Shown here in pieces: positions 23,134-39,452 of a DNA stretch of 64,000 nucleotides. The DNA comes from Steroidobacteraceae bacterium (GTDB lineage Bacteria; Pseudomonadota; Gammaproteobacteria; Steroidobacterales; Steroidobacteraceae). The stretch spans positions 124,001 through 188,000 of the forward strand of contig JANWJS010000033.1 in assembly GCA_025451845.1 (NCBI GenBank), in the 5' to 3' direction. Under the pieces are notes generated by a model. It saw nothing but the letters and a program-made list of their open reading frames with translations, was not told the DNA's origin and ran no database searches. Within the stretch, counting starts at the first letter, position 1. Each line of letters starts with the position of its first letter. Position numbers and translations under genes: made by a program.

Positions 23134-23281
23134 TTTCCGATGACGGCTGAGTATCCTCAGTACCATGCCGCGTGTGGTTTGCCTGCGCCGCGCATGACCA
23201 TCGGTCGCTCGTCGTGCCGACGCGATAAAGAAACAAGCAGCGGCTGCCCTTGCCGGTCACCCACAATAGGGGGAGCGTCTC

Positions 23282-26200
23282 ATGAAGCGAGCGTCTTCGC
23301 GTCGATTGCATCGCAACAGCGCCGTCCAGAGGGCCGTGGCGCTCGCCATCGGCTCAGCAGTAATCGGCTTCTCGGGCCCAGCCTGGGGGCAGGCAGTCAC
23401 CGGCACCATCGAGGGGACGGTTCCGGCGGCTTCCGGCGAAAGTATCCGGATCACCGGTGGCTCCGGGTTCAACCGTATCATCAACGTGGACCCCTCCGGC
23501 AGATACTCGACCACCGTTCCAGTCGGTACCTACACGGTGTCCCTGCTGCAGAACGGCAAGGTCGTGCAGTCCAAGACGGACGTCAGTCCGGTTGCCGCGG
23601 GCGCAGTGACCGTCGTCTTTTCCAGCGCGACCGCCACGACGGCCACGACAGCCCTGAGCACCATCCTCATCTCAGCCAGGGCGATCCCCGCGATCGACGT
23701 GTCCACGACCAATCAAGTCACCACGGTGACGGCCCAGGACCTGCTGCGCCTGCCCTTGCAGCGTGACGCGGCGGACATCGCCGCGCTGGCGCCGGGTGTC
23801 GGCATGGGCTCGCCCCAGCTGAGCAGCGGCCCGCTGGGCAACCCGATCAATGTGTTCGGCGGCGCCTCGACAGCCGAGAATGCCTACTACATCGACGGCA
23901 TGAACGTCACCGACGCGCTCACCGCACAGGGCGGTCTCGAGCTGCCGTATGGCGCCATTGAGGAGCAACAGACCCTCATCAGCGGCTACGGCGCCAAATA
24001 TGGCCGGTCCATCGGTGGCGTGATCAACCAGATCGGCAAGAGCGGCACCCACGACTGGCACTTTGGCGTGCGCGCCCTGGTGCAGCCGTCCTTCTTGCAA
24101 GCCGACTTCAAGAATTCCTATTACGCCAATTCGTTGGCGGCATCGAAGGGGTTTCCTCCGGGTCTGCTGCATAGCTACAACACGCCCGAGGATTTCCAGG
24201 AGACGACCTACGACGCCTACGTCAGCGGCCCGATCATCGAGAACAGATTGTTCTTCTTCCTGGCCGCCGAAGAGGACTACACGGGACAAACCACCAACGA
24301 CCTGTCCCTGGGCAACGCGGGTACGTTCGAAAACCCGTTCATCGCCCACGACCGCACGGATGCGCCCAAGTACTACGCCAAGATAAATTGGAACATCAAC
24401 GACAACAATCTGCTCACCCTGACCGGGCTCCAGACCTCGAACAAGACCTGGCAGTCGCAATATAACGTCAACTACGACCCTCCGAGTCTCGGGACTTTCT
24501 CGGGTTTCGGTCAAACGGTAAAGACTACCTTCAGGATGGGGGTGGCAAATTTCACCTCGTACCTCACCGACCAGCTGACCCTGGATGCGATGTTCGGTAG
24601 AACTCACGGCGACTATTCAGTCGTGCAGCCCGAGGGCCCGGGGTTCAATGCATCATTGCCCCACATCTCGAGCGCATCCAATCAGGATCCGCGGTTTGCG
24701 CCGCCCGGCGGTGTTACCAACGCCAACAGCAACTCGACGCAAGCCGACCCCCTGCACCATGTCAACGTCGCGTCTTACCGTGTGAGCCTCAACTACAAGT
24801 GGCGCACTCACGATATTACGGTGGGTATCGATAACATCAATTCCTGGGACTTGCACGACGGCAGCGAGAACACCGGACCCGGTTATTCCTGGATCTATGG
24901 CACCGCCGATCCGGGTGCGGCGCTTCTTACCGGCGCCACCCCCGGAGTCGCGCCCTATGTCGGCCCGTCGGATCAATGCTTCGACGGGACTTGCTACTAT
25001 GCCCAGCAGTCCTTTTCCAAATCATCGGCTTCGGTGAAGGTCCAGCAGCGCGCGCAGTACATCGAGGACAATTGGCACGTCATGTCGAACCTGCTGCTGT
25101 CCTTGGGCTTGCGCAACGACCAATTCACCAACTACGACGGGTCCGGCGTACCCTACATCAAGTTGACCTCGCCCCAATGGGCTCCGCGTTTCGGCTTCAG
25201 CTGGGACGTGAAGGGCGATTCCACCTTCAAGGTATTCGGCAATGCCGGCCGCTATTACCTGGCACTTCCGTTGACCACCGCCCTGTCGATCGCGGCGCCC
25301 GTGGTGAATTATTCCTTGTATGGGACCTACACGGGCATCGATCCGAGGACCGGCGCGCCCATCGGCTTCAAGCCCGTGTACCAGCTGCCGTCGACGGGCG
25401 CGGGGATCGACAGCGAATACGGCCAGGCGAAGGATCCGAGGATATCGGCCTCCCAGAACATCAAGGCCGAGTATTCGGACGACTTCGTGCTCGGCCTGCA
25501 GCACGAGTTCGAGATGTTGGATGAGAAGTGGGTGGCCGGGGCAACGGGCACGTACCAGAAGATGAACCGGATCATCGACGACTATGACGACGAGCAAAGA
25601 GAGTGTGCCGCTGGGCTGGCACAGGGCTATTCCTGGATGACGCCTGAAAACTGCGGCCAGTTTGCCCAAAGCCTCATCCTGATCAACCCGGCCGTAAACC
25701 AGCATATTCTGATGAAGGCCCCCGACGGGAGCCTCGTCCCGGTCAACTTCACGCCGGCGGAACAGGGCTTCCCGAGAGGGGTACTGCGCCAATACTACTC
25801 GCTCGACCTTTCACTGACGCACGTATGGAACGGCAGGTGGGCGGCGAAATTCGACTACGTATTCTCCAAGACGTGGGGCAACACGGAAGGGCCCGTCAGC
25901 ACCTTCTCGCAGCAGAGCGGGTCATATGAATCGATCACGACCGCGTGGGACTTCCCCGAGAGAATGGTGAATTCGTATGGCGTACAGCCGAACGACCGCA
26001 GGCACCAGTTCAAGATCTTCGGATCTTACGGGATCACGCGGGAACTGACGGTAGGCGCCAACCTCTACGCCGCCTCCGGCACTCCCCGGATGTGCCGCGG
26101 CGGATACGGGCCGGATCAGATCGCTTTGCACGGTTCCCATACTTACTACTTTTGCGGCGGCGTGCCGGTTCCTCCGGGCTCGCTGGGCCGTTTGCCCTGG

Positions 26201-26422
26201 ACCACCCGCCTGGACCTCAGCTTGGATTACAAACCGACGCTCAAGTACGTTGATCACGGACTCGACTTGAACGTTGCGGTGTTCAACGTGCTCAATCGTC
26301 AGACACCGCTCTTCATCAACGACTTCTTTGGCACGACCAGCAGTCCCAATTCCGAGTACGGCAGTGTCAACAACTTCACGCCGCCGCGCAGTGTTCGACT
26401 CTCTATTGCCTACGACTATTGA
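23282..26422 (+). CDS. TonB-dependent receptor, Oar-like
   Basis: Outer-membrane active transporter of 1046 residues. A signal peptide (VALAIGSAVIGFSGPAWGQA) is followed by a carboxypeptidase-regulatory-like beta-sandwich domain (about 40-115), the plug (LPLQRDAADIAALAPGV, INVFGGASTAENAYYIDGMNVTD) and a long beta-barrel ending SVRLSIAYDY with the terminal aromatic residue. Oar-like receptors with this N-terminal domain often import peptides or proteins. It shares an upstream element with the dgcN operon, so its substrate may be a D-amino-acid-containing peptide (inference). Ribosome-binding site GGGGGA precedes the ATG. A terminator follows. Confidence 0.93.
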   Translation: MKRASSRRLHRNSAVQRAVALAIGSAVIGFSGPAWGQAVTGTIEGTVPAASGESIRITGGSGFNRIINVDPSGRYSTTVPVGTYTVSLLQNGKVVQSKTDVSPVAAGAVTVVFSSATATTATTALSTILISARAIPAIDVSTTNQVTTVTAQDLLRLPLQRDAADIAALAPGVGMGSPQLSSGPLGNPINVFGGASTAENAYYIDGMNVTDALTAQGGLELPYGAIEEQQTLISGYGAKYGRSIGGVINQIGKSGTHDWHFGVRALVQPSFLQADFKNSYYANSLAASKGFPPGLLHSYNTPEDFQETTYDAYVSGPIIENRLFFFLAAEEDYTGQTTNDLSLGNAGTFENPFIAHDRTDAPKYYAKINWNINDNNLLTLTGLQTSNKTWQSQYNVNYDPPSLGTFSGFGQTVKTTFRMGVANFTSYLTDQLTLDAMFGRTHGDYSVVQPEGPGFNASLPHISSASNQDPRFAPPGGVTNANSNSTQADPLHHVNVASYRVSLNYKWRTHDITVGIDNINSWDLHDGSENTGPGYSWIYGTADPGAALLTGATPGVAPYVGPSDQCFDGTCYYAQQSFSKSSASVKVQQRAQYIEDNWHVMSNLLLSLGLRNDQFTNYDGSGVPYIKLTSPQWAPRFGFSWDVKGDSTFKVFGNAGRYYLALPLTTALSIAAPVVNYSLYGTYTGIDPRTGAPIGFKPVYQLPSTGAGIDSEYGQAKDPRISASQNIKAEYSDDFVLGLQHEFEMLDEKWVAGATGTYQKMNRIIDDYDDEQRECAAGLAQGYSWMTPENCGQFAQSLILINPAVNQHILMKAPDGSLVPVNFTPAEQGFPRGVLRQYYSLDLSLTHVWNGRWAAKFDYVFSKTWGNTEGPVSTFSQQSGSYESITTAWDFPERMVNSYGVQPNDRRHQFKIFGSYGITRELTVGANLYAASGTPRMCRGGYGPDQIALHGSHTYYFCGGVPVPPGSLGRLPWTTRLDLSLDYKPTLKYVDHGLDLNVAVFNVLNRQTPLFINDFFGTTSSPNSEYGSVNNFTPPRSVRLSIAYDY

Positions 26423-26443
26423 CCGGATCCAGTGACGCCTTTG

Positions 26444-26471
26444 CCGCCGGGCCCGCGCCCGGCGGTTTCTT
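26444..26471 (+). terminator. intrinsic terminator after TonB receptor
   Basis: Perfect 9-bp GC stem CCGCCGGGC-CCGC-GCCCGGCGG followed by TTTCTT, 21 bp after the receptor stop codon. Confidence 0.75.
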
Positions 26472-26527
26472 GCGGCGGGTTCGCGATCCGGATAGCATCC
26501 GGGGCACGCCCCCTGTTTGCCCATGAC

Positions 26528-28156
26528 ATGACCTCCGTTACCGAGCCGCAGTCCGCGCAGGTCGCCCTCCGGCGACCGCTGTCATCGGTGGCCTCGCGCC
26601 TGCTGGCCAGGGCGCGCAAAGAGTGGTCGCAGCAACAGTTCGAAGCTGCAGAACAGTCGCTGATCAGCGTGCTGGCATTGGCCCCGGATGAACCGGACGC
26701 CATCCGACTGCTCGGCATGGCGGCGCAGCGCCTCGGCAATCACGTCAAAGCGATCGACTGCTTCCGCCGGGTCCTTGCGCTGGGGCCCGAAGATTCCGAT
26801 CTGCACATGGGGCTCGGCATTGCCTTGTTCGAGCGCGGCGAGGTCGATGACGCGCTGGCGCACTTCCGACGCGCCTGCCAGCTCGAGCCTGCTTCCGCGT
26901 CGGCGTGGTTCAATCTCGGCGAGGCACTCGCACGGCAGGCGCACACGGAAGAGGCCCTCGCCGCGTTGCGGCACACGCTCGAGCTCCAATCCGCGCACCT
27001 ATCCGCCCGGCTCTCGCTGGCCCGGGCACACACCAGTCTGGGGCAAATCGATGCGGCGGTGTCCGAGTTTCGCGAAGTGCTGCGACGCGACCCCGGCAAT
27101 GCCGAAGGATGGTTCGGGCTCTCGAATCTCAACGTGATTCGCTTCCATGCCGCGGACGCCGCTTCTCTGCAGCGTGCTCTGTCACGGGAGGACTTGCCCC
27201 ACCGTGATCGCGAACTGCTCGGATTCGCTTTGGCGAAGGCCCTGGAGGGCCAGGGTGACTACGCGCAGGCCTTCGAAGTATTCCGGTCTGCCAATGCCTC
27301 CCGACGGCGCCGGGTGAAGTGGGATGCGGCGGGGGAGCACAGACGTGTCGATGCGATCCTGCGCGGATTTGCGGACGAGACGCTACCGCCACTCGATAGC
27401 CAGCTCGGGAAAGAAGTCATCCTGATCGTCAGCATCCCCCGCTCGGGCTCGACGCTGGTCGAGCACATCCTGGCTTCGCATCCGGAGGTCGAGGGCGCGA
27501 ACGAGATCAAGGACATGACGCAGGTCATCGATGCGGAGACTGCGCGTCGCAAATCGGCATTTCCACTCTGGGTTCCCGACGCCACGGCCGAGGATTGGCA
27601 ACGCCTTGGCCGCGAGTATCTTGCGCGAACCGCGCGCTGGCGGCTGACCAAGCCGCGGTTCACCGACAAGAGCCTGGTCACCTGGTATCTGGTGGGCGCA
27701 GCATTGGCGATGTTGCCCGCGGCACGCGTGATCGTCGTTCGCCGCGATCCGGTGGAGACCTGCCTGGGCTGCTTCCGCCAGTGCTTCAGCGAAAACAGCG
27801 GCTTTGCCTGTGACCTCGACGAGATGGCCGACTATTGCGGCGACTTCCTGCGCCTGACACGCTTCTGGCTGGAGAAGTATCCGAATCAGGTGTTCGATCT
27901 GCAATACGAAGCCCTGGTGGCCGAGCCGGAGCCCGTGATCCGTCGCCTGCTCGACTTCTGCAATCTCTCGTTCACCCCCGCATGCCTGGAGTTTCACAAG
28001 ACGGCGCGAACGGTGCAGAGTTTGCCCAGCGCCGCCCTCGTGCGCCAACCTTTGCGCAGCGACACCGCGCGCAGCGCGCTTTTTGGTGACAAGCTGGACC
28101 CCTTGCGCCGGCGCTTGCGGAAGGCGGGAGTGGATGTGGGATCGGTTTCCCCGTAA
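26528..28156 (+). CDS. TPR-repeat sulfotransferase-domain protein
   Basis: Protein of 542 residues. The N-terminal half has about five tetratricopeptide repeats (pattern A-x-x-L-G, then A-x-x-x-F-x-x-A-L-x-L-x-P). The C-terminal half is a sulfotransferase-3 domain with the PAPS 5'-phosphosulfate loop IPRSGSTLVEHIL, the 3'-phosphate-binding VIVVRRDPVETCLGCF and KSLVTWYLVGAAL. This architecture often sits beside Oar-like TonB receptors, as here; the sulfated substrate is unknown. ATG at 26528 is preferred over the first ATG at 26432, which lies before the terminator hairpin. Confidence 0.9.
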   Translation: MTSVTEPQSAQVALRRPLSSVASRLLARARKEWSQQQFEAAEQSLISVLALAPDEPDAIRLLGMAAQRLGNHVKAIDCFRRVLALGPEDSDLHMGLGIALFERGEVDDALAHFRRACQLEPASASAWFNLGEALARQAHTEEALAALRHTLELQSAHLSARLSLARAHTSLGQIDAAVSEFREVLRRDPGNAEGWFGLSNLNVIRFHAADAASLQRALSREDLPHRDRELLGFALAKALEGQGDYAQAFEVFRSANASRRRRVKWDAAGEHRRVDAILRGFADETLPPLDSQLGKEVILIVSIPRSGSTLVEHILASHPEVEGANEIKDMTQVIDAETARRKSAFPLWVPDATAEDWQRLGREYLARTARWRLTKPRFTDKSLVTWYLVGAALAMLPAARVIVVRRDPVETCLGCFRQCFSENSGFACDLDEMADYCGDFLRLTRFWLEKYPNQVFDLQYEALVAEPEPVIRRLLDFCNLSFTPACLEFHKTARTVQSLPSAALVRQPLRSDTARSALFGDKLDPLRRRLRKAGVDVGSVSP

Positions 28157-28183
28157 CGGTACTACGAAGCCGAGTTCGATCGC

Positions 28184-29047
28184 ATGGCCGACGCTCTTTC
28201 CACCTGCCTGCTCGACGGCGCCTTGCTGCCCACGAGCTCGGCCCGAATCTCCCCGTTCGATCGCGGCTTTCTGTTCGGCGATGGGATATACGAGGTCGTG
28301 CCCTGTTACGGCGGCAGGCCGTTTCGCCTGCCGGCGCACTTCGACCGGCTGGAGGCGGGGCTGGACGCGCTCGGGATCCACAACCCCTACCCGCGCGCCC
28401 GCTGGGCCGAGCTCATACAGGCGCTCATCACGGCCAACGGTGGCGGCGATATGGGCCTGTATCTCGAGATCACGCGGGGCACCGAACAGGGCCGCGACTT
28501 CCTACCGCAGCCGGGCATGAATCCCACGATTTTTGGCTTCTGCTGGCGGCTGGAGGTGGCGCGGCCCGAGCAACTCGAGCGGGGCATCTCTGTCGTCACG
28601 TTGGAAGACATCCGTTGGCTACGGTGTGACATCAAGTCCATCGCTCTGCTGGCGCCCGTCATGCTGCGGATGGAGGCCAAGCGCCGCGGCGCCGACGAGG
28701 CGATCCTGGTGCGCCAGGGGCGCCTGGCCGAGGGAAGCTCCAGCGCCGTATTCGTGGTCAACGACGGGCGCATTGCCACTGCGCCGGCGAGCAACGAGCG
28801 CCTGCCGAGCATCACTCGTCTCGTCGTGGGCGAAGTCATCGTCGCGCTCGGGCTGCCGTTGGAGGTGCGCGAAATCCATCACGATGAGATCTACACATCC
28901 GACGAGATCTGGATCGCGAGCGCGACCCGTGAGGTGATGCCCGTTACGCTTCTCGACGGCCGCGCCTTGGGCACGGGGAAACCGGGCCCGATCTGGCGCC
29001 GCGTCTTCGACGAATACCAGGCGTTCAAGAAACGCGAAGCGGCGTGA
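28184..29047 (+). CDS. dat: class IV aminotransferase, probable D-amino-acid (D-alanine) aminotransferase
   Basis: PLP enzyme of 287 residues of the D-AAT/BCAT fold: entry motif PFDRGFLFGDGIYEVVPCYGGRPFRL, PLP-lysine in RWLRCDIKSIALLAPVM, and the cofactor phosphate site LAEGSSSAVFVVNDG. The overall pattern, with a short small-domain arm and RCDIKS, fits D-alanine aminotransferase better than branched-chain enzymes. It would interconvert D-Ala, D-Glu and their keto acids. It lies 27 bp after the TPR-sulfotransferase, in the same transcription direction, and next to the lysR/dgcN pair. Confidence 0.87.
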   Translation: MADALSTCLLDGALLPTSSARISPFDRGFLFGDGIYEVVPCYGGRPFRLPAHFDRLEAGLDALGIHNPYPRARWAELIQALITANGGGDMGLYLEITRGTEQGRDFLPQPGMNPTIFGFCWRLEVARPEQLERGISVVTLEDIRWLRCDIKSIALLAPVMLRMEAKRRGADEAILVRQGRLAEGSSSAVFVVNDGRIATAPASNERLPSITRLVVGEVIVALGLPLEVREIHHDEIYTSDEIWIASATREVMPVTLLDGRALGTGKPGPIWRRVFDEYQAFKKREAA

Positions 29048-29126
29048 CGCGCATTATCCTTACGGAGCCATATGGAGCACGGGCATCTGCTCAGTGAGCG
29101 CGCTGCGGGCGATTCGACTGCAGCCG

Positions 29127-30029
29127 CTAGCGTTTGGCGAGCATCCCCTGTGCGAGTTGTCGCACGACGTTGAGAAAGCGTTTCTGTACCCGATCCAACG
29201 GACTGTCAGGCCGATGCATCGCGTACAACACGACTTCGAGAGAAGGCTTCAGCGGACGCATTTGCACGCTGTTCGCATCGCCACAGCGTGCCGTGAAAGG
29301 ATCCACCAGCGCCACTCCTTCGCCCTGTGACACGAGCGAACGGGCCAATTGATACGTCTGTACCGCGACCGCGATTTTGGGCGCCGGATCGAGCTTTGCG
29401 AGGTGGCTTTGAAGCATGCTGCCCAAGGCGTCGCGCACCGTGATACCGATCATGGACTGACTGGCCAAAGCGCCGATCGGCAAAGGTTGCGTCAATTCCC
29501 CCGGCGACCACCATCCTGGCGGAGCGATCGCCATGACCTGTCCGCGGCAGAGCACTCTCTGTCGCAAGTTCTGATGCCCGGTATCCTGTAACGTGAGGCC
29601 GATATCCGTCTCGCGGAGCGTCACCGACTCGCACATCGCCGCTGAATGCTCCGTGGACAGCTCGACCGTCACATCGGGGAAAGTCTTGCGCAACAATACG
29701 GTTGCGGAGGGAAGCAGCACCTGTGCCAGGGTCGGCGTGCAGGTCACGCGCAACGGAGAGCTTCCCGGCTGGCTCATGTTCGTCGTCAGGCGCTCCAGGT
29801 CCTGTACCTCCTGAATGATATTTTCGATCCGCTCGCGCAATAACTGCGCTTGCGGGGTCGGCTGTACGCGTCCACGTACACGACTGAACAGGGCAAAGCC
29901 GAGCTGATCCTCGGCATGCTGCAACGCCTTGCTGGCCGCAGGTTGGGAGATGTCCAGCAGCTTCGCTGCGCCGGTGATGCTGCCCGAGGTCAGAATGGCA
30001 TGAAATAGCTCGATGTATCGCAGCCGCAT
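29127..30029 (-). CDS. LysR-type regulator of the D-amino-acid island (DgcR-like)
   Basis: LysR-family regulator of 300 residues with the N-terminal helix-turn-helix (RYIELFHAILTSGSITGAAKLLDISQPAASKALQHAEDQLGF written in pieces: SITGAAKLLDISQPAASKAL) and the effector-binding domain. It is divergent from the DUF1611 gene. LysR regulators occupy the same place in the described D-glutamate pathway (DgcR with DgcN and DgcA). A 40-nt element lies 120 bp before its start and recurs before the TonB receptor. The inducing ligand is not known; N-acetyl-D/L-glutamate or D-Glu is a reasonable guess. Confidence 0.88.
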   Translation of the reverse strand: MRLRYIELFHAILTSGSITGAAKLLDISQPAASKALQHAEDQLGFALFSRVRGRVQPTPQAQLLRERIENIIQEVQDLERLTTNMSQPGSSPLRVTCTPTLAQVLLPSATVLLRKTFPDVTVELSTEHSAAMCESVTLRETDIGLTLQDTGHQNLRQRVLCRGQVMAIAPPGWWSPGELTQPLPIGALASQSMIGITVRDALGSMLQSHLAKLDPAPKIAVAVQTYQLARSLVSQGEGVALVDPFTARCGDANSVQMRPLKPSLEVVLYAMHRPDSPLDRVQKRFLNVVRQLAQGMLAKR

Positions 30030-30149
30030 AGCGCTCTACCCACCCATTTTCGTCAAGCAGTGCCATCTCGGAGTTCAACACAGGTTGCCGTTTTCAGGCA
30101 AACCAAGACGCTCCGAAGCACCGATTCGATGACTCGGGTAAAGCCCCAC

Positions 30150-30189
30150 AACCCTGAGTTATGCCATCTTCCGGTCTTTTCATTGGTGG
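30150..30189 (+). promoter_or_regulatory. shared 40-nt element, copy B (between lysR and dgcN)
   Basis: AACCC-N5-TATGCC-N6-CGGTCTTTTCATTGGTGG, with the same spacings as copy A at 23094-23133. It ends 68 bp before the dgcN start. Its position between a LysR gene and its divergent target is the usual place for a LysR recognition site. Confidence 0.7.
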
Positions 30190-30257
30190 CCGGCGCCGCC
30201 CATGGTTATGCTTCTTCGGCCTTTTTACGCTGAACGGAAGCAGTTGGAGCGGATTTC

Positions 30258-31301
30258 ATGTTCAAGCATGGCGAAGCGGCCGACCACGGCCATTGGGGCC
30301 CGCCTTTTCTGCTGTACCTGGGTGGAGCAGCGGACGATTTGGCGATCAAGACCGCCAGGGGACTGGCCTACTGGCGACCCGAGTGGTGTATCGGCCAGTA
30401 CCGGGATCCCGAGTGCCGCCCGACGCTCGGCTTGCCGGATATGGAACCGGCGCAAGCCAGTGCCGCAGGCGCAAACACCATGGTGATCGGCACCGCAAGT
30501 GCGGGCGGCGTGATGGCACGCCAGACCGTCGCGGACATCATCACGGCACTGAACGCCAACCTCAACGTGATTTCCGGCCTCCACGAAAAGCTGCGTGACA
30601 ATGCGGACATCGTGGCTGCCGCTACACGCAACGGCCGAACGTTGTTCGATGCCCGCGAATACGCGCAAAGGATCCCTGTCGGCAGTGGCCGCAAGCGTGC
30701 CGGACAGCGCTTGTTGACGATTGGTACCGACTGCTCGGTCGGCAAGATGTACACCACGCTCGCGATCGAGCGCTGCATGCGCAAACGCGGTCTCAAGGCG
30801 GATTTCCGCGCCACCGGGCAGACCGGCATCTTCATCGCGGGTGCCGGCATACCCGTGGATGCGGTGATTGCCGATTTCATTTCCGGAGCGGCCGAATTGA
30901 TCTCGCCTGCCCGTGAAGACGACGGCTGGGATCTCATCGAAGGCCAGGGGTCGCTGTTTCATCCGTCGTACGCCGGGGTGTCGCTGGGCTTGCTCCACGG
31001 TTCCCAACCGGACGCGCTCGTCCTATGCCATGAGCTGACGCGGCAGCACATGCGCGGACTCCCCGGCTACCCGCTCCCCGGCCTCGCGAGCTGCCTGGAA
31101 GCGAACCTCATCGCTGCTCGCTTGACCAACCCTGCGGTCAAGGCAGTCGGCATAGCCCTCAACACGTCGAATGTATCCGAACGGGCGGCCCATGCGGCTT
31201 GCCGCGAGATCGCTGAGCGACTGGACCTGCCGTGTGAAGACCCGGTCACCATGGGAGTTGAATCCATCGTGGACAATTTGCTTTCGTGCTGCGCACACTG
31301 A
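30258..31301 (+). CDS. dgcN: DUF1611 family protein, DgcN-like (D-glutamate N-acetyltransferase)
   Basis: Protein of 347 residues with an N-terminal Rossmann-like part and a C-terminal P-loop-like part (LLTIGTDCSVGKMYTTLAIE around 155-174, then GQTGIFIAGAGIPVDAVIADF and GWDLIEGQGSLFHPSYAGVSLGLLHG), the DUF1611 pattern. DUF1611 member DgcN acetylates D-Glu to N-acetyl-D-Glu, which DgcA epimerises. The start of the DgcA-like gene lies inside its end (16-bp overlap), strong support for a shared pathway. Specificity for D-Glu over other D-amino acids is inferred from context. Confidence 0.85.
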   Translation: MFKHGEAADHGHWGPPFLLYLGGAADDLAIKTARGLAYWRPEWCIGQYRDPECRPTLGLPDMEPAQASAAGANTMVIGTASAGGVMARQTVADIITALNANLNVISGLHEKLRDNADIVAAATRNGRTLFDAREYAQRIPVGSGRKRAGQRLLTIGTDCSVGKMYTTLAIERCMRKRGLKADFRATGQTGIFIAGAGIPVDAVIADFISGAAELISPAREDDGWDLIEGQGSLFHPSYAGVSLGLLHGSQPDALVLCHELTRQHMRGLPGYPLPGLASCLEANLIAARLTNPAVKAVGIALNTSNVSERAAHAACREIAERLDLPCEDPVTMGVESIVDNLLSCCAH

Positions 31302-32272
31302 ACATCCAGCACCGCGCGTTTCCGTTGCGGTCACCCTTTCGAATCTCGCGCGGGGTCAAGCTTGCGGCGGACGTGGTGACGGTCGAGCTGGGGCAGGCAG
31401 GTTGCGTTGGGCGTGGCGAATCGGTGCCCTACGGTCGCTACGGCGAGTCCGTGGCATCCGTGATGGATCAAATCGAGGTGCTGCGTAGCGTCCTGTGTGC
31501 AGGCATGGGCAGGGACGAGCTGCAGGCACGCCTTCCCGGGGGGGCGGCGCGCAACGCACTGGACGCGGCGTTGTGGGATCTGGAATCCCGACTCAGCCAG
31601 ATACCCGTATGGAAACAGTTGGCGCGGCCGGCCCGCTTGCCGCTGGTGACTGCTCTCACAATCGGCATTGACACGCCGCAGGAGATGCGCAAGGCGGCCG
31701 CCCGCATCGCGAATCATAAACTGATCAAGATCAAGGTCGATACGGATGATCCGGTTGGGCGAATCGAGGCCGTGCGGGATGCGGCTCCCGCCGCCAAACT
31801 CATCGTGGACCCCAACGAAAGCTGGACGATCGACGTCCTGCGCGAGGTCCAACCGGCGCTCGAACGAGCATCCGTGAGTCTCCTGGAACAGCCGCTTCCT
31901 GCCAATGAAGACGATGCCCTGCTGGAGTTTTCGAGCGGCATCCCGATATGCGCGGATGAGGCCTGCCACACCACCTCGAACCTGCGCTCGCTGCTCAATC
32001 GTTATCAGGCCGTCAACATCAAGCTGGACAAGACCGGGGGCCTGACCGAAGCCTGGCGCCTGCTGCGTGAGGCAAGAGCCTGTGGCTTCACTGTCATGGT
32101 GGGATGCATGGTCTGCTCATCGCTCGGCATCGCACCGGCGTTGGAAGTCGCACGCGAAGCGGACTTCGTCGACCTGGATGGACCGCTGTGGCTGCAAGGA
32201 GACCATCCGGATGGCGTCACCCTGCAAGACGGCCTGCTCATGCCGCCGGCATCCGGATTCTGGGGCGGGTGA
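31286..32272 (+). CDS. dgcA: enolase-superfamily dipeptide/N-acyl-amino-acid epimerase, DgcA-like
   Basis: Muconate-lactonising-type enolase-superfamily protein of 328 residues. Catalytic features: K-x-K at about 148/150 (LIKIKVD), metal ligands Asp175 (VDPNES), Glu201 (LLEQPL) and Asp224 (CADEACH), and the second-base region NIKLDKTGG near 244-252. Relatives are L-Ala-D/L-Glu epimerases of murein-peptide recycling and DgcA, which turns N-acetyl-D-Glu into N-acetyl-L-Glu. Adjacency to the DUF1611 gene favours DgcA, but either reaction fits the island. GTG start at 31286, overlapping dgcN. Confidence 0.87.
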   Translation: MLRTLNIQHRAFPLRSPFRISRGVKLAADVVTVELGQAGCVGRGESVPYGRYGESVASVMDQIEVLRSVLCAGMGRDELQARLPGGAARNALDAALWDLESRLSQIPVWKQLARPARLPLVTALTIGIDTPQEMRKAAARIANHKLIKIKVDTDDPVGRIEAVRDAAPAAKLIVDPNESWTIDVLREVQPALERASVSLLEQPLPANEDDALLEFSSGIPICADEACHTTSNLRSLLNRYQAVNIKLDKTGGLTEAWRLLREARACGFTVMVGCMVCSSLGIAPALEVAREADFVDLDGPLWLQGDHPDGVTLQDGLLMPPASGFWGG

Positions 32273-32434
32273 GCCGACCCCCGGCAAGGTGGACAGAGCT
32301 CTTCGATTGCTGAGAGCATGCTGCGGAAGGGGAATTGCCTCGACAATACCGGCCAGGCGGCATAGCGTTCGTGTCATGAGTGACGGCCATCGGTCACGAC
32401 TCTCTCCATTCCAAGACCTACGAGGTTGAAGGCG

Positions 32435-34261
32435 ATGTTCGAGCCACACACGGCGCAGCCTCTCTCAACGGAACCTGCCCGGTTGGTACGACGACCCGGT
32501 ATCGGATCGTTTCGGGCGGCATTGGCTCTGGCTATCGTTGCACTCAGTACGACGGCCGGCGCGAGGGACAGCGCCAGTACACGAGTGCTCTCCACGATTG
32601 CCAATGCACCTTCCACCACTCGCGAGGCGCTGGCCAAGGCCAAACCGGTCATCGCGCAGCACGCCATGGTGGTCAGCGCTCAGCATCTGGCGACCCTGGC
32701 AGGATTGGACATCCTCAAGCGAGGAGGCAATGCAATCGACGCGGCCGTAGCCGTCGGCTACGCGGAGGCGGTCGTCCATCCGTGCTGCGGCAATATCGGT
32801 GGCGGCGGGTTCATGCTGATTCATCTCAAGAGCGGCGAGAACCTGTTTCTCAACTTCCGCGAGAGAGCGCCGCTGAAAGCCACACCGACCATGTTCCAGG
32901 ATGCCGAAGGCAGAGTTGTGCCGAGTCGCAGCACCGATTCCTACTTGGGAGTGGGTGTACCAGGCACCGTCATGGGCCTCGACACCGCGCTCGCGAAATA
33001 CGGCTCGATGTCGTTGAGAGAGGTGATCGCGCCGGCCATACAGCTGGCCCGCGACGGCTATGTGCTTCGACAGGGCGACGTGAACATCCTCAACGACAGC
33101 GTCGAAGACTTCGCCAGACATCCCAACGTTGCAGCTATTTTCCTGAATCACGGCAAGCCCTACGTGGCCGGCCAGCGTCTGGTACAAAAGCAACTGGCGC
33201 AAACGCTCGAGCAGATTGCCGATGGCGGCACTGACGCGTTCTACCGGGGCGCCATCGCACGCGCCGTGGTCAGGGCCAGCCAGGCCAATGGCGGCATCCT
33301 GGCGGCGCAGGACTTCGCCCACTACACGGTGCAATGGGAGAGGCCGATCCGCTGCAGTTACCACGGCTACACCATTCTTTCCGCGCCTCCGCCGAGCTCG
33401 GGTGGCACGACGCTATGCGAGATCCTGCAGATCATCCAGCCGTATCCGTTCGCCCAATGGGGCTATGGCTCGGTCAACTCCGTGCACTTCCTGGCCGAGG
33501 CCGAGCGCCGCGCGTTCGCCGATCGCAACACCTACCTGGGCGATCCGGCATTCGTCCACGATCCGGTCGACGAGCTGCTTTCAGCCGCTCACGCGGAAAA
33601 GCTGCGATCCACGATCCTTGCGGACCAAGCCACGCCTTCATCGGCGATCCGGGGTGATCTCGGCGCCACCGAAGGTAATCACACCACGCACTATTCGGTG
33701 GCCGACAAGTATGGCAATGCGGTTGCCGTCACGTACACCGTAAATTTTCTGTTCGGCATCCGCCAGATTGCCGGCCGCACCGGCTTCTTCCTCAACGACG
33801 AGATGGATGACTTCACGTCCAAGCCTGGCGTGGCCAACGCAGCAGGCCTGGTGCAAGGCAAGGTCAACCAAGTCGAGCCCGGGAAGCGCCCCTTGAGCTC
33901 CATGACGCCGACCATCGTCATGCGTGACGGCAAGCCGCTTTTGCTGACCGGCAGCCCCGGCGATGCGACCATCATCTCGACCACCCTGCAAAGTATCCTC
34001 AACGTCGTGGACTACGGCATGAACGTGCAACAAGCCGTGAACGCGCCCCGCATGCACCAGCAGTGGTATCCGCAGAAAGTCTGGATCGAGGACGGGATGC
34101 TTTCGCCCGAGTCGCAACGGAAGCTCGAGGCAATGGGCTATCAATTCAGAACGATCCACGGCATGGGCGCCGATGAAGCCATCCTGATCGACCCGAAGAG
34201 CGGCGTGCTCGAAGGCGCCAACGATCGGCGTCGTCCGGCCGGTCTCGCGGCGGGCTACTGA
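32435..34261 (+). CDS. ggt: gamma-glutamyltranspeptidase, periplasmic
   Basis: Ntn-hydrolase of about 608 residues that transfers or hydrolyses gamma-glutamyl groups. A signal-anchor-like segment (FRAALALAIVALSTTAGA) is near residue 25. The self-cleavage and catalytic Thr is the first Thr of HTTHYSVAD at about residue 417, followed by YGNAVAVTYTVN. The substrate-binding KRPLSSMTPTIV and GSPGDATII segments are present. ATG at 32435 is used; TTG at 32426 is in frame with similar spacing to a GAGG box. In this operon it may open gamma-D-glutamyl bonds, but that stereochemistry is not shown by sequence. Confidence 0.93.
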   Translation: MFEPHTAQPLSTEPARLVRRPGIGSFRAALALAIVALSTTAGARDSASTRVLSTIANAPSTTREALAKAKPVIAQHAMVVSAQHLATLAGLDILKRGGNAIDAAVAVGYAEAVVHPCCGNIGGGGFMLIHLKSGENLFLNFRERAPLKATPTMFQDAEGRVVPSRSTDSYLGVGVPGTVMGLDTALAKYGSMSLREVIAPAIQLARDGYVLRQGDVNILNDSVEDFARHPNVAAIFLNHGKPYVAGQRLVQKQLAQTLEQIADGGTDAFYRGAIARAVVRASQANGGILAAQDFAHYTVQWERPIRCSYHGYTILSAPPPSSGGTTLCEILQIIQPYPFAQWGYGSVNSVHFLAEAERRAFADRNTYLGDPAFVHDPVDELLSAAHAEKLRSTILADQATPSSAIRGDLGATEGNHTTHYSVADKYGNAVAVTYTVNFLFGIRQIAGRTGFFLNDEMDDFTSKPGVANAAGLVQGKVNQVEPGKRPLSSMTPTIVMRDGKPLLLTGSPGDATIISTTLQSILNVVDYGMNVQQAVNAPRMHQQWYPQKVWIEDGMLSPESQRKLEAMGYQFRTIHGMGADEAILIDPKSGVLEGANDRRRPAGLAAGY

Positions 34262-34314
34262 TTGGCCGCCCCGCGTCTCAGCCCGATGGAAAACATACAG
34301 CGCGGCGGCGAGCG

Positions 34315-35598
34315 ATGACCGGCACGACCGATCTCGCCGAAGCCGTGTGCGCTGACGATGGCCGTCTGGAAGGCGTGGATCTGCGCGTCCTGGCGCAGCG
34401 ACTGGGCACGCCGCTTCATGTCTATTCCGCACCCGCCATCGGAGCACGCATTCGTGCGTTGCAAACAGCCCTGCGAGGGCAGGATGCGCTGATCTGCTAT
34501 GCCGTCAAGGCCAATTCAAACCTCGCCGTTCTGGGATTGATGGCCGACGCCGGACTGGGTGCAGACATCGTGTCGGCAGGCGAATTGCAGCGCAGTCTGC
34601 GTGCGGGCATTCCCGCCGGCCGTATCGTATTTTCCGGGGTTGCCAAGAGCGCCGATGAGATCGGCGATGCGCTGGCCGCCGGCATCGGCCGCTTCAACGT
34701 GGAATCGAAAGACGAGCTGCGCCTGTTGCAGGATGTGGCGGCGGCCCGGGGCGCGGTCGCACGTGCCTCGGTACGCGTCAATCCCGACGTCGATGCGCTC
34801 ACCCACGCCAAGATTTCCACCGGCAAATCGGAAAACAAGTTCGGCGTGGGCATTGATGAGGCACGCGAGTGGTTCGCGGACAGCACGCGGCTGACGCATG
34901 TGCGCTTGGATGGCTTGCACGTACACATTGGCTCGCAAATGCTCTGCCTGGATCCGATCCAGCTGGCATTGCAACGCGTGGCCGCCCTCTGGCGCGAACT
35001 GACCTCTTCCGGATATGCGATCAACAGTATCGATGTCGGTGGCGGACTCGGTGTGCGCTATCGCGACGGCCAGGACCAGCCCGTTTCCGTGCAGGACTAC
35101 GCCGAGGTCATTCGGAAAACGCTGGACGGCTTCGGCGGCCGCATCCTGCTCGAACCGGGCCGCTGGCTCGTGGCCGAGGCCGGATTTCTGCTGACACGGG
35201 TGCTCCGTATCAAGCAGGGGCGGCAGCGCCGATTCCTGGTCGTGGACGCGGCCATGACCGAGCTCGTGCGCCCGAGCCTCTATGACGCCTGGCACGAGAT
35301 CGTGCCGATCTTGCGCCGCCCACTACCGCCGCAAATCTACGACGTCGTCGGACCGGTTTGCGAGAGCAGCGACACTTTTGCCGTTGATCGCCAGCTGCCG
35401 CCGTGCGAGCCCGGCGATCTGCTGATGATCAAGACGACGGGGGCTTACGGCGCCGCGATGGCATCGAACTACAACTCGCGACCGCTGGCCGTCGAGGTGC
35501 TGCTCGAGCGCGGCCGCTACGCGGTCGTGCGGCGGCGCCAGACGCTCGAGGAAATGATCGCCGGTGAGCAACCGGCACGGAACTGGGAATGCGCATGA
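34315..35598 (+). CDS. lysA: diaminopimelate-decarboxylase-like PLP enzyme
   Basis: Fold-type III decarboxylase of 427 residues. PLP-lysine in CYAVKANSNLAVL, histidine stack GLHVHIGSQ, phosphate-binding GGGLGVRYRDG, EPGR, and catalytic Cys in GPVCESSDTF. LysA acts on the D-centre of meso-diaminopimelate, giving L-lysine. Its placement among D-amino-acid and gamma-glutamyl genes suggests a catabolic role on DAP from cell-wall peptides, or on another D-amino acid, rather than lysine synthesis (inference). It overlaps the next gene by 10 bp. Confidence 0.87.
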   Translation: MTGTTDLAEAVCADDGRLEGVDLRVLAQRLGTPLHVYSAPAIGARIRALQTALRGQDALICYAVKANSNLAVLGLMADAGLGADIVSAGELQRSLRAGIPAGRIVFSGVAKSADEIGDALAAGIGRFNVESKDELRLLQDVAAARGAVARASVRVNPDVDALTHAKISTGKSENKFGVGIDEAREWFADSTRLTHVRLDGLHVHIGSQMLCLDPIQLALQRVAALWRELTSSGYAINSIDVGGGLGVRYRDGQDQPVSVQDYAEVIRKTLDGFGGRILLEPGRWLVAEAGFLLTRVLRIKQGRQRRFLVVDAAMTELVRPSLYDAWHEIVPILRRPLPPQIYDVVGPVCESSDTFAVDRQLPPCEPGDLLMIKTTGAYGAAMASNYNSRPLAVEVLLERGRYAVVRRRQTLEEMIAGEQPARNWECA

Positions 35599-37148
35599 AG
35601 CGGTCTGCCGGATTGCCGCTGATCTCTTTGGTGCTGGTCCTATGCGGAGCAGATGCCCAAGGTGCCTCGCCCAACACCGGTTCGCCGTCCGACTACGATG
35701 GCCTGGTCAGTGCGGTGGTGGCGCAATACCACCTGCCGGGCATTGCTGTCGGTGTCATCGACGATGGCAAGGTGGTTTACACGCGCACGGCAGGGAATCT
35801 GGAATCGGGCAAGCCGATCGACACCGATACGCTGTTCGAGATTGCGTCCAACAGCAAGGCCATGACCGTGACGCTGCTGGCTCGCCTGGTGGAAGAAGGC
35901 AAGTTGCATTGGGACGACCCGGTAACGAAGTACCTGCCGTCATTTCGTATGAACGACCCTTGGGTCACGGCGAACATGCAGGTCGGCGATCTGCTGGTGC
36001 ATCACAGCGGCCTCCCCGAGGGCGCAGGGGATTTGATGCTGTGGCCGGAACCCAATGATTTCACGCCCCGGGACGTGGTGGAGGGCCTGCGTTACCTCAA
36101 GCCGGCCTACAGCTTTCGCGCGGGCTACGGCTACGACAACACGCTCTACATCGTGGCCGGTCAGGTGGCTGCCGCGGCCGGGGGCGCGCCGTATCCGACC
36201 CTCATGCGCCGGGAGATATTTCAGCCGCTCGGCATGAACCGCTGCCAGATCGGCACGTGGAATCGCGACCAGGTGGGCAATGTGGCGCGCCCGCACATAT
36301 GGCAAGACGGCGGTTTCGTCGAAGAGCAGCCCAGCGGGCCAATCGTGCGGGCTGCCACCATGGACGCGGCCGGGGGCGTGCGCTGCAGCCTGAATGACAT
36401 GCTGATCTGGGCCCTGAGCTGGCTGGCACCCACACCGAAGCAACTCGCGTGGTTATCGCAGGACCAGCGCCGGAAAGAGTGGACCGCCTATACTCCCATG
36501 CCCATATCCGCACGTCGCCGTGCCTGGGATGGCACCCTCTTTTACAGCTATGGTTATGGCTGGCGCATTGCCGATGTAGATGGACAGATGACGGTGTCGC
36601 ACACGGGCACGCTGTCAGGCATGTATTCCGCCGTGACACTGCTGCCGTTCCGGAAGAGCGGCTATGTCTTCCTCATCGACGCCGATGCCGATAATGCGCG
36701 CACCGTGCTCAATGAGGTACTGACCAAGCGATTCACCGCCCCGCAGAGCGCTCGCAGTGTGGCCAGCTACGCCGACGAGCTGGCTCGCGAGGATCGGCAG
36801 CAACGAAATTCGCGCGTTCCCAATACGTCCTCGCGCAAGCCTGCGAGGCCCATGGATCTCAAGGATCAACTCGGTGTGTGGCGCGACCCGTGGTTCGGCG
36901 AGGCGCGGATTTGTGCACGAGGGGATGCAGTGTTCTTCGCCTCGCGGAAATCGCCCATGCTGGCCGGACAGGTCATGCGCGTCGGAGAGCACTATCTGGT
37001 GCACTGGGGCAGCGGGAATTCCGAGGCCTGGCTGCTTTTTCCCAGGCAGGCTGGCGACGAGTTGCGCATGGCCAAGGTCGATCCCGACGCGGACTTCAGC
37101 GACGACTACGAAGACCTGGCCTTCAAACGAGAGCATGCTTGTGAATGA
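35589..37148 (+). CDS. beta-lactamase-fold serine hydrolase with C-terminal extension
   Basis: Secreted protein of 519 residues (signal LPLISLVLVLCGADAQGA). Class-C-type catalytic signatures are S-N-S-K in LFEIASNSKAMTVTLLARL, Y-D-N in YGYDNTLYIVAG and the third box SHTGTLSG. The last 130 residues form a DUF3471-like beta domain. Members include DD-peptidases, D-aminopeptidases and esterases. In this operon a peptidase acting on D-residues is likely. Overlaps lysA by 10 bp, so it is co-translated. Confidence 0.85.
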   Translation: MRMKRSAGLPLISLVLVLCGADAQGASPNTGSPSDYDGLVSAVVAQYHLPGIAVGVIDDGKVVYTRTAGNLESGKPIDTDTLFEIASNSKAMTVTLLARLVEEGKLHWDDPVTKYLPSFRMNDPWVTANMQVGDLLVHHSGLPEGAGDLMLWPEPNDFTPRDVVEGLRYLKPAYSFRAGYGYDNTLYIVAGQVAAAAGGAPYPTLMRREIFQPLGMNRCQIGTWNRDQVGNVARPHIWQDGGFVEEQPSGPIVRAATMDAAGGVRCSLNDMLIWALSWLAPTPKQLAWLSQDQRRKEWTAYTPMPISARRRAWDGTLFYSYGYGWRIADVDGQMTVSHTGTLSGMYSAVTLLPFRKSGYVFLIDADADNARTVLNEVLTKRFTAPQSARSVASYADELAREDRQQRNSRVPNTSSRKPARPMDLKDQLGVWRDPWFGEARICARGDAVFFASRKSPMLAGQVMRVGEHYLVHWGSGNSEAWLLFPRQAGDELRMAKVDPDADFSDDYEDLAFKREHACE

Positions 37149-37199
37149 GGGCGCGCCTCGCGACGATCATGTGCTGACTTTCGGTGCGGAGAAACGATC

Positions 37200-38264
37200 A
37201 TGACGCGCAAACTGGCGCTGTTGGCGCTGATGTGGCTGATGCCGACGATCTGTGCGTATGCGCAATCCGCCGAGCAGGCGAGGCGTGCCGATATCGACGG
37301 CCTGATGAGCCGCTACCAAGGTGAAGTACCCGGCGCCTCGCTGCTGGTCGTCAAGGACGGCCAGGCCATCGTGAGACGCGGCTATGGTTACGCGAATATG
37401 GAGAGGGAGATCAAGTCCGGCCCTGACACCAACTATCGCCTGGCATCGGTGACGAAGCAGTTCACTGCCGCATGTATCCTGTTGCTGCAACAGGATGGGA
37501 AATTGCAGCTGAAGGACCGCGTGCGCAAATGGCTGCCGGAACTTCCAGCCGAAGACGACAAGATCACCCTTTACCATTTGCTGACTCACACCAGCGGACT
37601 GATCGATTATGAGGACCTGATTCCCCCCAACCGAACTGCCCAGCTGGACGATGCCGACGTACTCAGCCTGATCGCTGCACAGCACCGCCTCTACTTCGAG
37701 CCTGGCAGCGCTCACCGCTACAGTAATGGCGGCTTTGTGCTTCTGGGCTTGATCGTCGAGCGCGTGTCGCGCATGGATCTGGCGGCTTTTTTGAAGAAGC
37801 GCATTTTCCAGCCGCTCGGGATGGACCACACCCTGATGTACGAGCACGGGCGGGGGCCCGGGGTATCGAATCGCGCCTACGGCTACAGTGATATCAACGG
37901 TACGTGGTCGAGAACCGACCAGGACATCACGAGCGCCACTCGCGGCGACGGCGGCATCTACTCCTCCATTGACGACCTCGGCAGGTGGGATGCGGCGCTG
38001 TACACGGACAAACTGCTGAACGCAGACTCGCGGCGCAGGGCCTTCACCGCGCACGAACCGACCGACGACCCCGACGTGACTTACGGATTCGGCTGGCGCA
38101 TCTCCGGCAATACCGTGTGGCACTCCGGCGAGAGTATCGGGTTTCGTAACGTGATCGTCCGCTGGCCGAAACAGCACCTCACCGTGATCATCCTCAGCAA
38201 TCGCAACGAATTCCAGCCCTATCCGCTGGCGGTCGCGATCGGGCAGTTGTTTTTGCACCGGTAA
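37200..38264 (+). CDS. beta-lactamase-fold serine hydrolase, short form
   Basis: Secreted protein of 354 residues (signal ending YAQSA). Catalytic motifs are S-V-T-K in YRLASVTKQFTAACILLLQQDG, Y-S-N in HRYSNGGFVLLGLI and the HSGES box near the C-terminus. It lacks the C-terminal domain of its neighbour, so the two are separate relatives rather than a recent exact duplication. It probably acts as a D-aminopeptidase, DD-carboxypeptidase or esterase in the periplasm; the assignment among these is open. It begins 51 bp after the preceding gene. Confidence 0.85.
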   Translation: MTRKLALLALMWLMPTICAYAQSAEQARRADIDGLMSRYQGEVPGASLLVVKDGQAIVRRGYGYANMEREIKSGPDTNYRLASVTKQFTAACILLLQQDGKLQLKDRVRKWLPELPAEDDKITLYHLLTHTSGLIDYEDLIPPNRTAQLDDADVLSLIAAQHRLYFEPGSAHRYSNGGFVLLGLIVERVSRMDLAAFLKKRIFQPLGMDHTLMYEHGRGPGVSNRAYGYSDINGTWSRTDQDITSATRGDGGIYSSIDDLGRWDAALYTDKLLNADSRRRAFTAHEPTDDPDVTYGFGWRISGNTVWHSGESIGFRNVIVRWPKQHLTVIILSNRNEFQPYPLAVAIGQLFLHR

Positions 38265-38288
38265 GCGAGGTCTTCCGCAGCAACTGCA

Positions 38289-39452
38289 GTGAACGCGAAC
38301 ACGAGCCTCGCCGGCCTCGCAGTCGGCTACGACATCCCCGCTTTGCCCGGCATGGGCGAGGCGGACATCCAGACGCCCTGTCTGATCCTCGATCTGGACG
38401 CGCTGGAGCGTAACATCAGGAAGATGGGTGAGTACGCGAGGGCGCACGGCATGCGCCACCGCAGTCACGGGAAGATGCACAAGTCGATCGACGTGCAGAA
38501 GCTGCAGGAAACGTTGGGTGGCGCAGTGGGCGTTTGCTGTCAGAAAGTTTCCGAGGCCGAGGCCTTCGCGCGCGGTGGCATCCAGGATATCCTCGTGTCC
38601 AACGAAGTGCGCGATCGGGTCAAGATCGACCGCCTCGCGCATCTTCCGAAGTATGGCGCACGCATCAGCGTCTGCGTCGATGAGCTGGCGAACGTGGTGG
38701 AGCTTTCGGCTGCCGCGCAACGGCGCGACACGACGCTGGAGTGCCTCGTCGAAATCGACTGCGGCGGTGGCCGCTGCGGCGTCAAGAGTGCCAGCGCCGC
38801 AATCGAGATTGCGAAAGCCATCGGTGTAGCGCCGGCGCTGAAATTCGGCGGCATCCAGGCTTATCAAGGCACCCTGCAGCACCTGGAGAGCTACGAGGAT
38901 CGCAAGGCCAGGTTCGACGACGCCCTGGGCCCGGTCAAGGCGGTCCTCGAGGCTCTGCGAGCGGTTGGGCTGAGACCGGAGCTCGTCTCGGGAGGCGGGA
39001 CGGGCTCCTATTATTTCGAGTCGACCTCGGGCGTCTACAACGAGCTGCAATGCGGCAGTTATGCGTTCATGGATGCAGACTACGGGCGCGTCAGGGACAA
39101 GGATGGGAACCGCATCGACCATGGCGAATGGGAGAACGCTCTCTTCATCCTGACCTCAGTGATGAGCCATACCAAGCCCGATCAGGCGGTCTGCGACGCA
39201 GGACTGAAGGCGCAGTCGCTCGATAGCGGCCTGCCCGTCATCCATGGCCGCAACGACGTGAAATACATCAGCGCCTCGGATGAACACGGCGTGATCGAGG
39301 ACAAGCGCGGCGTTCTGCGCATCAATGAAAGGCTGAAGCTCGTTCCGGGGCATTGCGACCCGACCTGCAATCTTCACGATTGGTACGTCGGTGTGCGCAA
39401 CGGCAAAGTCGAGGTGGTCTGGCCTGTGTCCGCGCGCGGCAAATCCTATTGA
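38289..39452 (+). CDS. D-threonine aldolase / D-serine dehydratase (DSD1) family PLP enzyme
   Basis: Fold-type III PLP enzyme of 387 residues. N-terminal IQTPCLILDLDALERNI, PLP-lysine segment RSHGKMHKSIDVQKLQ, GGGTGSYYFESTSGVYNELQCGSY, and C-terminal metal site GHCDPTCNLHDWYVG. The family covers D-threonine aldolase, D-serine dehydratase and 3-hydroxy-D-aspartate enzymes, which sequence alone does not separate. All act on D-amino acids, fitting the rest of the operon. GTG start at 38289. It is the last gene of the seven-gene run and lacks a signal peptide, so it is cytoplasmic. Confidence 0.85.
   Translation: MNANTSLAGLAVGYDIPALPGMGEADIQTPCLILDLDALERNIRKMGEYARAHGMRHRSHGKMHKSIDVQKLQETLGGAVGVCCQKVSEAEAFARGGIQDILVSNEVRDRVKIDRLAHLPKYGARISVCVDELANVVELSAAAQRRDTTLECLVEIDCGGGRCGVKSASAAIEIAKAIGVAPALKFGGIQAYQGTLQHLESYEDRKARFDDALGPVKAVLEALRAVGLRPELVSGGGTGSYYFESTSGVYNELQCGSYAFMDADYGRVRDKDGNRIDHGEWENALFILTSVMSHTKPDQAVCDAGLKAQSLDSGLPVIHGRNDVKYISASDEHGVIEDKRGVLRINERLKLVPGHCDPTCNLHDWYVGVRNGKVEVVWPVSARGKSY

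Follow-up and report, generated by a model that had tools for sequence, protein, structure and literature searches.

We analysed a window of 64,000 nucleotides from a Steroidobacteraceae bacterium (GCA_025451845.1, contig JANWJS010000033.1, positions 124,001 to 188,000 of the forward strand). It contains a block of about 17.8-39.45 kb, larger than the 23282..39452 that a first-pass annotation had proposed as an island for the use of D-amino acids and cell-wall stem peptides. The block is probably a utilisation island that arrived by horizontal transfer and would be controlled by a single LysR-type activator, a DgcR-type regulon that would scavenge D-amino-acid peptides, mainly murein stem peptides. 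The gene content and families, the pattern of a 45-bp element in front of both gene units, the co-occurrence of this element with the regulator and the transfer of the block rest on sequence.

Organization of the island

The ten genes named in the first-pass annotation were all recovered at their coordinates from the list of open reading frames (ORFs) and by profile scans, each in the named family or a near one. The gene list had left out a TPR-sulfotransferase and stopped short of the region that begins at about 17.8 kb. The genes are arranged in two forward units flanking a divergent lysR. Unit 1 comprises the genes for a TonB-dependent receptor, the TPR-sulfotransferase and an aminotransferase (gaps of 9 and 27 bp), and unit 2 is dgcN-dgcA-ggt-lysA-SH1-SH2-bhcC, with gaps of -16, 162, 53, -10, 51 and 24 bp in this order. 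The single operon proposed earlier for 23282-39452 had to be given up, because lysR lies divergently between the two head-to-tail units and each of them has its own 45-bp element. DgcN, DgcA, the gamma-glutamyltranspeptidase (GGT), the diaminopimelate (DAP) decarboxylase LysA and BhcC exceed curated cut-offs, whereas the aminotransferase and the two serine hydrolases (SH1 and SH2) were placed at family level only. Features of the two units are:

23090..23134 (+), putative LysR operator 2, before the TonB-receptor gene (position weight matrix score 45.0, outside the training set)
23282..26422 (+), TonB-dependent receptor of OMP_b-brl_4 type (Pfam)
26432..28156 (+), TPR-sulfotransferase (Sulfotransfer_3 and TPR)
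28184..29047 (+), class IV (D-amino-acid) aminotransferase (PF01063; best solved match D-amino acid aminotransferase 4pbc; below NCBIfam cut-offs)
29127..30029 (-), LysR-type regulator, DgcR-like by position (PF00126/PF03466)
30146..30190 (+), putative LysR operator 1, before dgcN (alignment of eight lysR-dgcN spacers; score 72.6, training site)
30258..31301 (+), dgcN, D-glutamate (D-Glu) N-acetyltransferase (NF041892, 514 bits, cut-off 480)
31286..32272 (+), dgcA, N-acetyl-D-Glu racemase (NF042940, 435 bits, cut-off 400)
32435..34261 (+), GGT (TIGR00066, 563 bits, cut-off 358; E. coli-type GGT chain 2e0w, E 8e-159)
34315..35598 (+), lysA, stand-alone DAP decarboxylase (TIGR01048, 465 bits, cut-off 298; the 15 best solved matches are all DAP decarboxylases)
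35589..37148 (+), SH1, PF00144 serine hydrolase with C-terminal extension
37200..38264 (+), SH2, PF00144 serine hydrolase
38289..39452 (+), bhcC, 3-hydroxy-D-aspartate aldolase (NF045642, 736 bits, cut-off 690; 6qkb, E 2e-203, full length)

A putative LysR operator before both units

The 45-bp element, AYAAC-N5-GYTATG-N13-TTTTCATTGG, is located before dgcN and before the TonB-receptor gene, suggesting that both units share one putative LysR operator. It was found by aligning the lysR-dgcN spacers of eight genomes, including the one studied here, as a block conserved within otherwise divergent DNA. The position weight matrix built from these eight spacer sites detects two sites of at least 8 bits in the window, the dgcN site, on which it was trained, and the receptor site, on which it was not; two mononucleotide shuffles of the window gave no site of 0 or more. 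With up to three mismatches allowed, the pattern occurs exactly twice in the 4.4-Mb genome, both times in the island. A known RNA was ruled out as an explanation of the element, as Rfam gave no match across 17000-42000.

The element is present in 18 of the 24 genomes tested and its reversed-pattern control in none (0/24). A LysR orthologue (match of E 1e-50 or better) was detected in 16 of them, with 46-81% identity apart from the copy of the studied genome itself, and all 16 carry the element, compared to two of the eight genomes without the orthologue. These two both belong to Luteimonas and have one site each with one mismatch; the other six have none. The chance of such a split is 0.0002 assuming independent genomes, which they are not.

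In promoters activated by LysR-type proteins, a T-N11-A dyad lies near -65 and another element at -35. With the hexamers assigned by eye, operator 1 has its dyad centre at 30155, TTGGTG at 30183 and TATGCT at 30207 (spacer 18), and operator 2 has its centre at 23099, TTGGTG at 23127 and TATCCT at 23152 (spacer 19), so that 57 and 58 bp separate the dyad centre from the last base of TATGCT and TATCCT, respectively. The dyad centre would then lie about 64-65 bp upstream of the inferred start and the TTTTCATTGG part would abut the supposed -35, a geometry that resembles that of LysR-activated promoters. The receptor copy, ATAAC-N5-GCTAT, contains T-N11-A. A consensus scan for promoters and terminators stayed near shuffle level (4 vs. 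3.1 and 15 vs. 11.2) and was uninformative; the hexamers assigned by eye were not among its output.

lysA and a possible link to murein

Elsewhere in the genome a second DAP decarboxylase is encoded as an aspartokinase-LysA (AK-LysA) fusion (1219 bits, cut-off 802). Therefore, the island lysA should be dispensable for lysine synthesis, and the possibility that it is the only lysine-biosynthetic copy, which had been set beforehand as refuting the island's proposed role, is ruled out. Judged by gene content, a stand-alone LysA next to a separate AK-LysA, the former is a candidate DAP-consuming enzyme beyond biosynthesis. Among the 15 genomes with the nearest dgcN relatives, 11 have both a stand-alone lysA and a second one, three only the second and one only the stand-alone gene; the second lysA of the 11 was recognised as the long frame expected for the fusion (one ends at a contig edge) and not by a fusion-model scan. 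In Halomonas A40-4, growth on external DAP depends on LysA, as deletion of lysA nearly abolished it (PMC9602339).

In seven genomes of Rhodanobacter, Dyella and Frateuria (loci L163-L169) the stand-alone lysA lies apart from dgcN. Six of these loci (all but L166) were mapped with a larger query set, and in 6/6 LysA is accompanied by an NlpC/P60 protein, an M15 D-Ala-D-Ala dipeptidase and SH2, joined by SH1 and a dipeptide epimerase in five each, an M19 dipeptidase in four and Amidase_2 in three. Among solved structures, the L163 NlpC/P60 protein best matches a gamma-D-glutamyl-L-diamino acid endopeptidase, and the L163 epimerase the L-Ala-D/L-Glu epimerase 1jpm (E 1e-104). This murein-cluster setting of lysA with SH1/SH2 is the strongest support for the stem-peptide reading. 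From these loci, lysA-SH1/SH2 looks like a murein-peptide module that, in the source lineage of the island, is found linked with the D-Glu operon.

Identities of the island enzymes

DgcA, for which the first-pass annotation had left open whether it is DgcA or an Ala-Glu epimerase, fits an N-acetyl-D-Glu racemase better: it exceeds the DgcA cut-off, and the E. coli-type epimerase is disfavoured by the PRK15129 model (324 bits, cut-off 343). By the same scores it is not recognised as the L-Ala-D/L-Glu epimerase of murein-peptide clusters. In Shewanella psychrophila WP2 the DgcN-DgcA route is described as very likely the main path for D-Glu (PMC10845958), and dgcN has been termed a key gene of a D-Glu racemisation pathway (PMC12363236). 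Both D-Glu and peptidoglycan support growth of a Rhodobacteraceae strain that has the two Dgc enzymes (PMC11747546).

GGT probably starts at ATG 32435 and not at TTG 32426, and its N-terminal stretch resembles, by eye, a signal peptide. Inspection of the translations by eye located the expected catalytic residues: the GGT threonine, KxK and the second lysine of DgcA, the pyridoxal phosphate lysine and CESSD of LysA, and SxxK, YxN and HxG in both SH1 and SH2. The solved matches of SH2 include Flp, alkaline D-peptidase, DD-carboxypeptidase, D-amino acid amidase, D-aminopeptidase and beta-lactamases, while those of SH1 are weak, the best being an esterase-like protein (E 2e-22) and the next the ClbP peptidase. 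In relatives a PF00144 gene lies within 5 kb of DgcN at at least 15 of 37 places (at least 14 of 36 without the window's own), with about one expected; the 37 are those of 55 DgcN matches whose genomes were also searched for PF00144, after fragments and divergent matches had been dropped. A gamma-D-Glu-diamino-acid endopeptidase (NlpC/P60) was not found among the scanned ORFs, and a tblastn search with the L163 protein across the whole window gave none either. In several relatives' loci a TPR-sulfotransferase gene is coupled to the same type of TonB receptor.

The last gene of unit 2, earlier assigned to the DSD1 family of D-hydroxy-amino acid enzymes, is more exactly bhcC. Since BhcC scores above its equivalog cut-off and LysA scores as complete, one could think of glycolate or glyoxylate use by the beta-hydroxyaspartate cycle, or of a back-up for lysine synthesis. 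However, BhcA, BhcB and BhcD are missing among the ORFs scanned in the block (the rest of the genome was not searched for them) and a biosynthetic AK-LysA exists, which leaves this explanation next to no chance.

The putative regulon in relatives

The first downstream gene was taken for 60 element sites in 25 loci (41 sites without mismatch, 11 with one, three with two and five with three), yielding 57 distinct proteins. TonB receptors with a TonB Plug domain account for 23 of the 57, DgcN for 14, GGT for seven, M81/MlrC proteins for four and Amidohydro_3 proteins for two. A class IV aminotransferase, a sodium:solute symporter, a TonB protein and an AAA protein occur once each, the latter two both after three-mismatch sites, and the remaining three first ORFs are out-of-frame, over two dgcN genes and one receptor gene. 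As the loci were mostly picked for holding islands, these shares describe islands and not genome-wide rates. The label 'D-aminoacylase' for the Amidohydro_3 genes was dropped, as the one scanned had no NCBIfam match. Element-preceded units also encode GltS in Rudaea (320 bits, cut-off 311) and a D-amino-acid dehydrogenase in Lysobacterales bacterium 66-474 (668 bits, cut-off 383).

The expectation that the gene order is kept in other genomes held in part. Much of it is retained in a few genomes: Rudaea has dgcN-dgcA-lysA-SH1-SH2-bhcC, a receptor-TPR-aminotransferase unit nearby and a third unit of ggt-gltS-dehydrogenase, with the element before each. In a set of 80 dgcN loci of named genomes, whose flanks span at most 10 kb and are in part truncated, dgcA is present in 70, GGT in 12, lysA within the dgcN run in four (L075-L078; three Rhodanobacteraceae/Lysobacterales records and one titled only Proteobacteria) and BhcC in three.

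Alternatively, the island could serve the use of poly-gamma-glutamate or free D-Glu, where GGT would strip D/L-Glu from the polymer for DgcN/DgcA, with lysA and the hydrolases as passengers. Rhodanobacter glycinis (L079 = L213) and Frateuria (L080) indeed have GGT-DgcN-DgcA-GltS as one unit without lysA. We nevertheless regard this as quite improbable for the island, as LysA, a DAP decarboxylase by family, overlaps SH1 and sits in the dgcN-dgcA run of the four other genomes, and as the island aminotransferase and the relatives' D-amino-acid dehydrogenase have other D-amino acids as substrates.

Catabolism of other D-amino-acid peptides, such as non-ribosomal lipopeptides, siderophores with D-hydroxy-Asp or cyclic D-Glu peptides, would account for BhcC within the operon. 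The PF00144 enzymes, which include ClbP-like peptidases, point in the same direction, as do the M81/MlrC-type genes after operators in Hydrocarboniphaga and two genus relatives, although the NCBIfam MlrC model stays far below its cut-off (107 of 999). However, LysA sits with murein-peptide enzymes in six loci, no MlrC was found among the ORFs scanned in the window and DAP is not known as a usual residue of such peptides; we consider this explanation unlikely.

Further observations concern individual loci. Lysobacterales bacterium 66-474 (G417; L206, L207, L172) has a super-island of the same regulon, in which eight elements are spread over about 51 kb and five precede a TonB-receptor gene. The M81/MlrC-family genes following an element lie at L209:13498-16946 (two, Hydrocarboniphaga), L045:5032-6693 and L046:5259-6959 (genus relatives). 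A 7.9-Mb genome of the same genus (G010; L035-L044) has ten DgcN-type and 31 PF00144 matches, some of them adjacent, which hints at a family of repeated D-peptide islands; the element is absent there. Five dgcN units of Dyella and Rhodanobacter (L081, L082, L083, L084, L089) have no dgcA within the fetched locus.

Origin of the block

Three further genes extend the block to the left:

17841..19562 (+), transglutaminase-core protein, left edge of the Rhodanobacteraceae-like block (Transglut_core; 58-72% to Rhodanobacteraceae loci, where it adjoins an M61 or LysA gene)
19584..21836 (-), M61 glycyl-aminopeptidase family protein (PF05299/PF17899; 67% to Rudaea and Dyella loci)
21572..22942 (-), APC amino-acid permease, candidate inner-membrane importer (PF13520; 81-82% to L206)

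The best identities of island proteins on the Rhodanobacteraceae side are about 64-82%. Within the own genus DgcN reaches up to 69% and is mostly near 50%. M61 stays at or below 46% in 29 relatives and the own paralogues, and no LysA above 49% was among the matches listed from 395 other genomes of the order (E 1e-100 or better). TrmB at 6-7 kb shows the opposite pattern: identities are 53-73% in seven relatives from the genus and 42-56% in eleven other genomes. The GC content is 63.0% in 17.8-39.45 kb vs. 66.3 and 66.2% on either side. Six relatives from the genus lack the block, and there the counterparts of the 1.8-7.2 kb and 49.4-62 kb genes are within about 6-25 kb of each other. The identities, the GC content and this empty syntenic site suggest horizontal arrival from a Rhodanobacteraceae lineage, and the block is most simply seen as an insertion in native DNA. 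A misbinned contig is disfavoured, as both flanks are native to the genus and close together in the six relatives. The exact block ends and a mobility gene were not found. Compared with genus relatives, the segment 1827-7235 has the opposite orientation with respect to the right flank.

An AmpG-family muropeptide transporter gene is present at 3177-4595 (447 bits, cut-off 350), in the native flank outside the block. It would suit recycling of the cell's own wall, but a dedicated TonB receptor, a patchy distribution and recent transfer are unlike a core recycling path, and we hold this explanation to be very unlikely.

Proposed mechanism

In the scavenging that we propose for the island, the catalytic steps on murein, the control by LysR, the inducer and the substrate are predictions. 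The operators before the receptor unit and the dgcN operon would switch both on together, with D-Glu or another D-amino acid as probable inducer. The TonB receptor would import D-amino-acid peptides of foreign murein, from which SH1/SH2 and M61, a family that removes N-terminal Gly/Ala, would trim D-Ala and the N-terminal residue in the periplasm. There GGT would split the gamma-D-Glu-DAP bond; E. coli GGT accepts gamma-D-glutamyl donors. Permeases, including the APC permease, would bring the monomers in, where LysA could turn meso-DAP into L-Lys. The aminotransferase would move the nitrogen of D-Ala onto 2-oxoglutarate, and the resulting D-Glu would be converted to N-acetyl-L-Glu by DgcN/DgcA. 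In this way the nitrogen of D-amino acids would be channelled through D-Glu. For BhcC, cleavage of 3-hydroxy-D-Asp or D-Thr from other D-peptides is predicted, so that the diet is probably wider than the stem peptide.

Several observations weigh against this reading. The element was found in none of the seven lysA loci L163-L169 (0/7), and lysA therefore lacks support as an ancestral member of the regulon; next to dgcN it is found in only 4/80 loci. The dgcN copies of the element begin with ACAAC, the one in the island being ACAAC-N5-GTTAT, and thus have a C in place of the T of the strict T-N11-A core. Among the ORFs scanned in the block there is no L,D-carboxypeptidase, amidase or murein hydrolase, and the action of GGT on gamma-D-Glu-DAP is itself predicted. 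The specificities of SH1/SH2 and of the receptor are not readable from sequence, and the matches of SH1 include esterases. Finally, the earlier stem-peptide theme agrees with the enzyme families for D-Glu, D-Ala, DAP and D-peptides, whereas BhcC and the sulfotransferase map onto no part of a normal stem peptide.

A more general model has, in our view, an even chance of being right. In it, a portable D-amino-acid regulon consists of one LysR with a long bipartite operator over several TonB receptors and a D-Glu funnel. Some lineages would have captured the murein lysA-hydrolase module, so that D-Glu from foreign murein triggers uptake and digestion of the whole stem peptide, and the set would have moved between gammaproteobacterial orders. 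Bacterial necromass is a large nitrogen pool, and the reuse of D-Glu, D-Ala and DAP from dead walls is poorly mapped. The 45-bp element provides a marker with which the regulon can be searched for, connects D-Glu catabolism with outer-membrane receptors and opens the way to a direct test in cultured strains of Rudaea, Rhodanobacter or Dyella.

Comparison with known systems

The DgcN-DgcA-DgcR pathway for D-Glu is reportedly known from Pseudoalteromonas CF6-2. The island shares with it adjacent DgcN and DgcA above NCBIfam cut-offs together with a LysR gene, and differs by the addition of GGT, LysA, two hydrolases, BhcC and a TonB-receptor/aminotransferase unit with the same operator. Murein peptides are degraded by catabolic clusters of the ykfABCD type, which the lysA-hydrolase module of the relatives resembles in its YkfB-like epimerase (1jpm) and gamma-D-Glu-diamino-acid endopeptidase. 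In the island, where neither an Ala-Glu epimerase nor NlpC/P60 was found, D-Glu would instead pass through DgcN/DgcA and the gamma bond would be left to GGT. BhcC aligns over the full length of 6qkb as in the beta-hydroxyaspartate cycle, but no other bhc gene is among the ORFs scanned in the block. As in marine Pseudomonadota, LysA may serve as the entry of external DAP (PMC9602339); unlike there, the island has a second lysA inside a D-amino-acid operon, and the term 'gene cluster' is absent from the main text of that paper. In the literature searched, which covered few subscription papers, the combined cluster is not described by title or beginning of abstract. Both halves are known kinds of system; what seems to be new is that they are combined, along with several TonB receptors, under a single putative operator.

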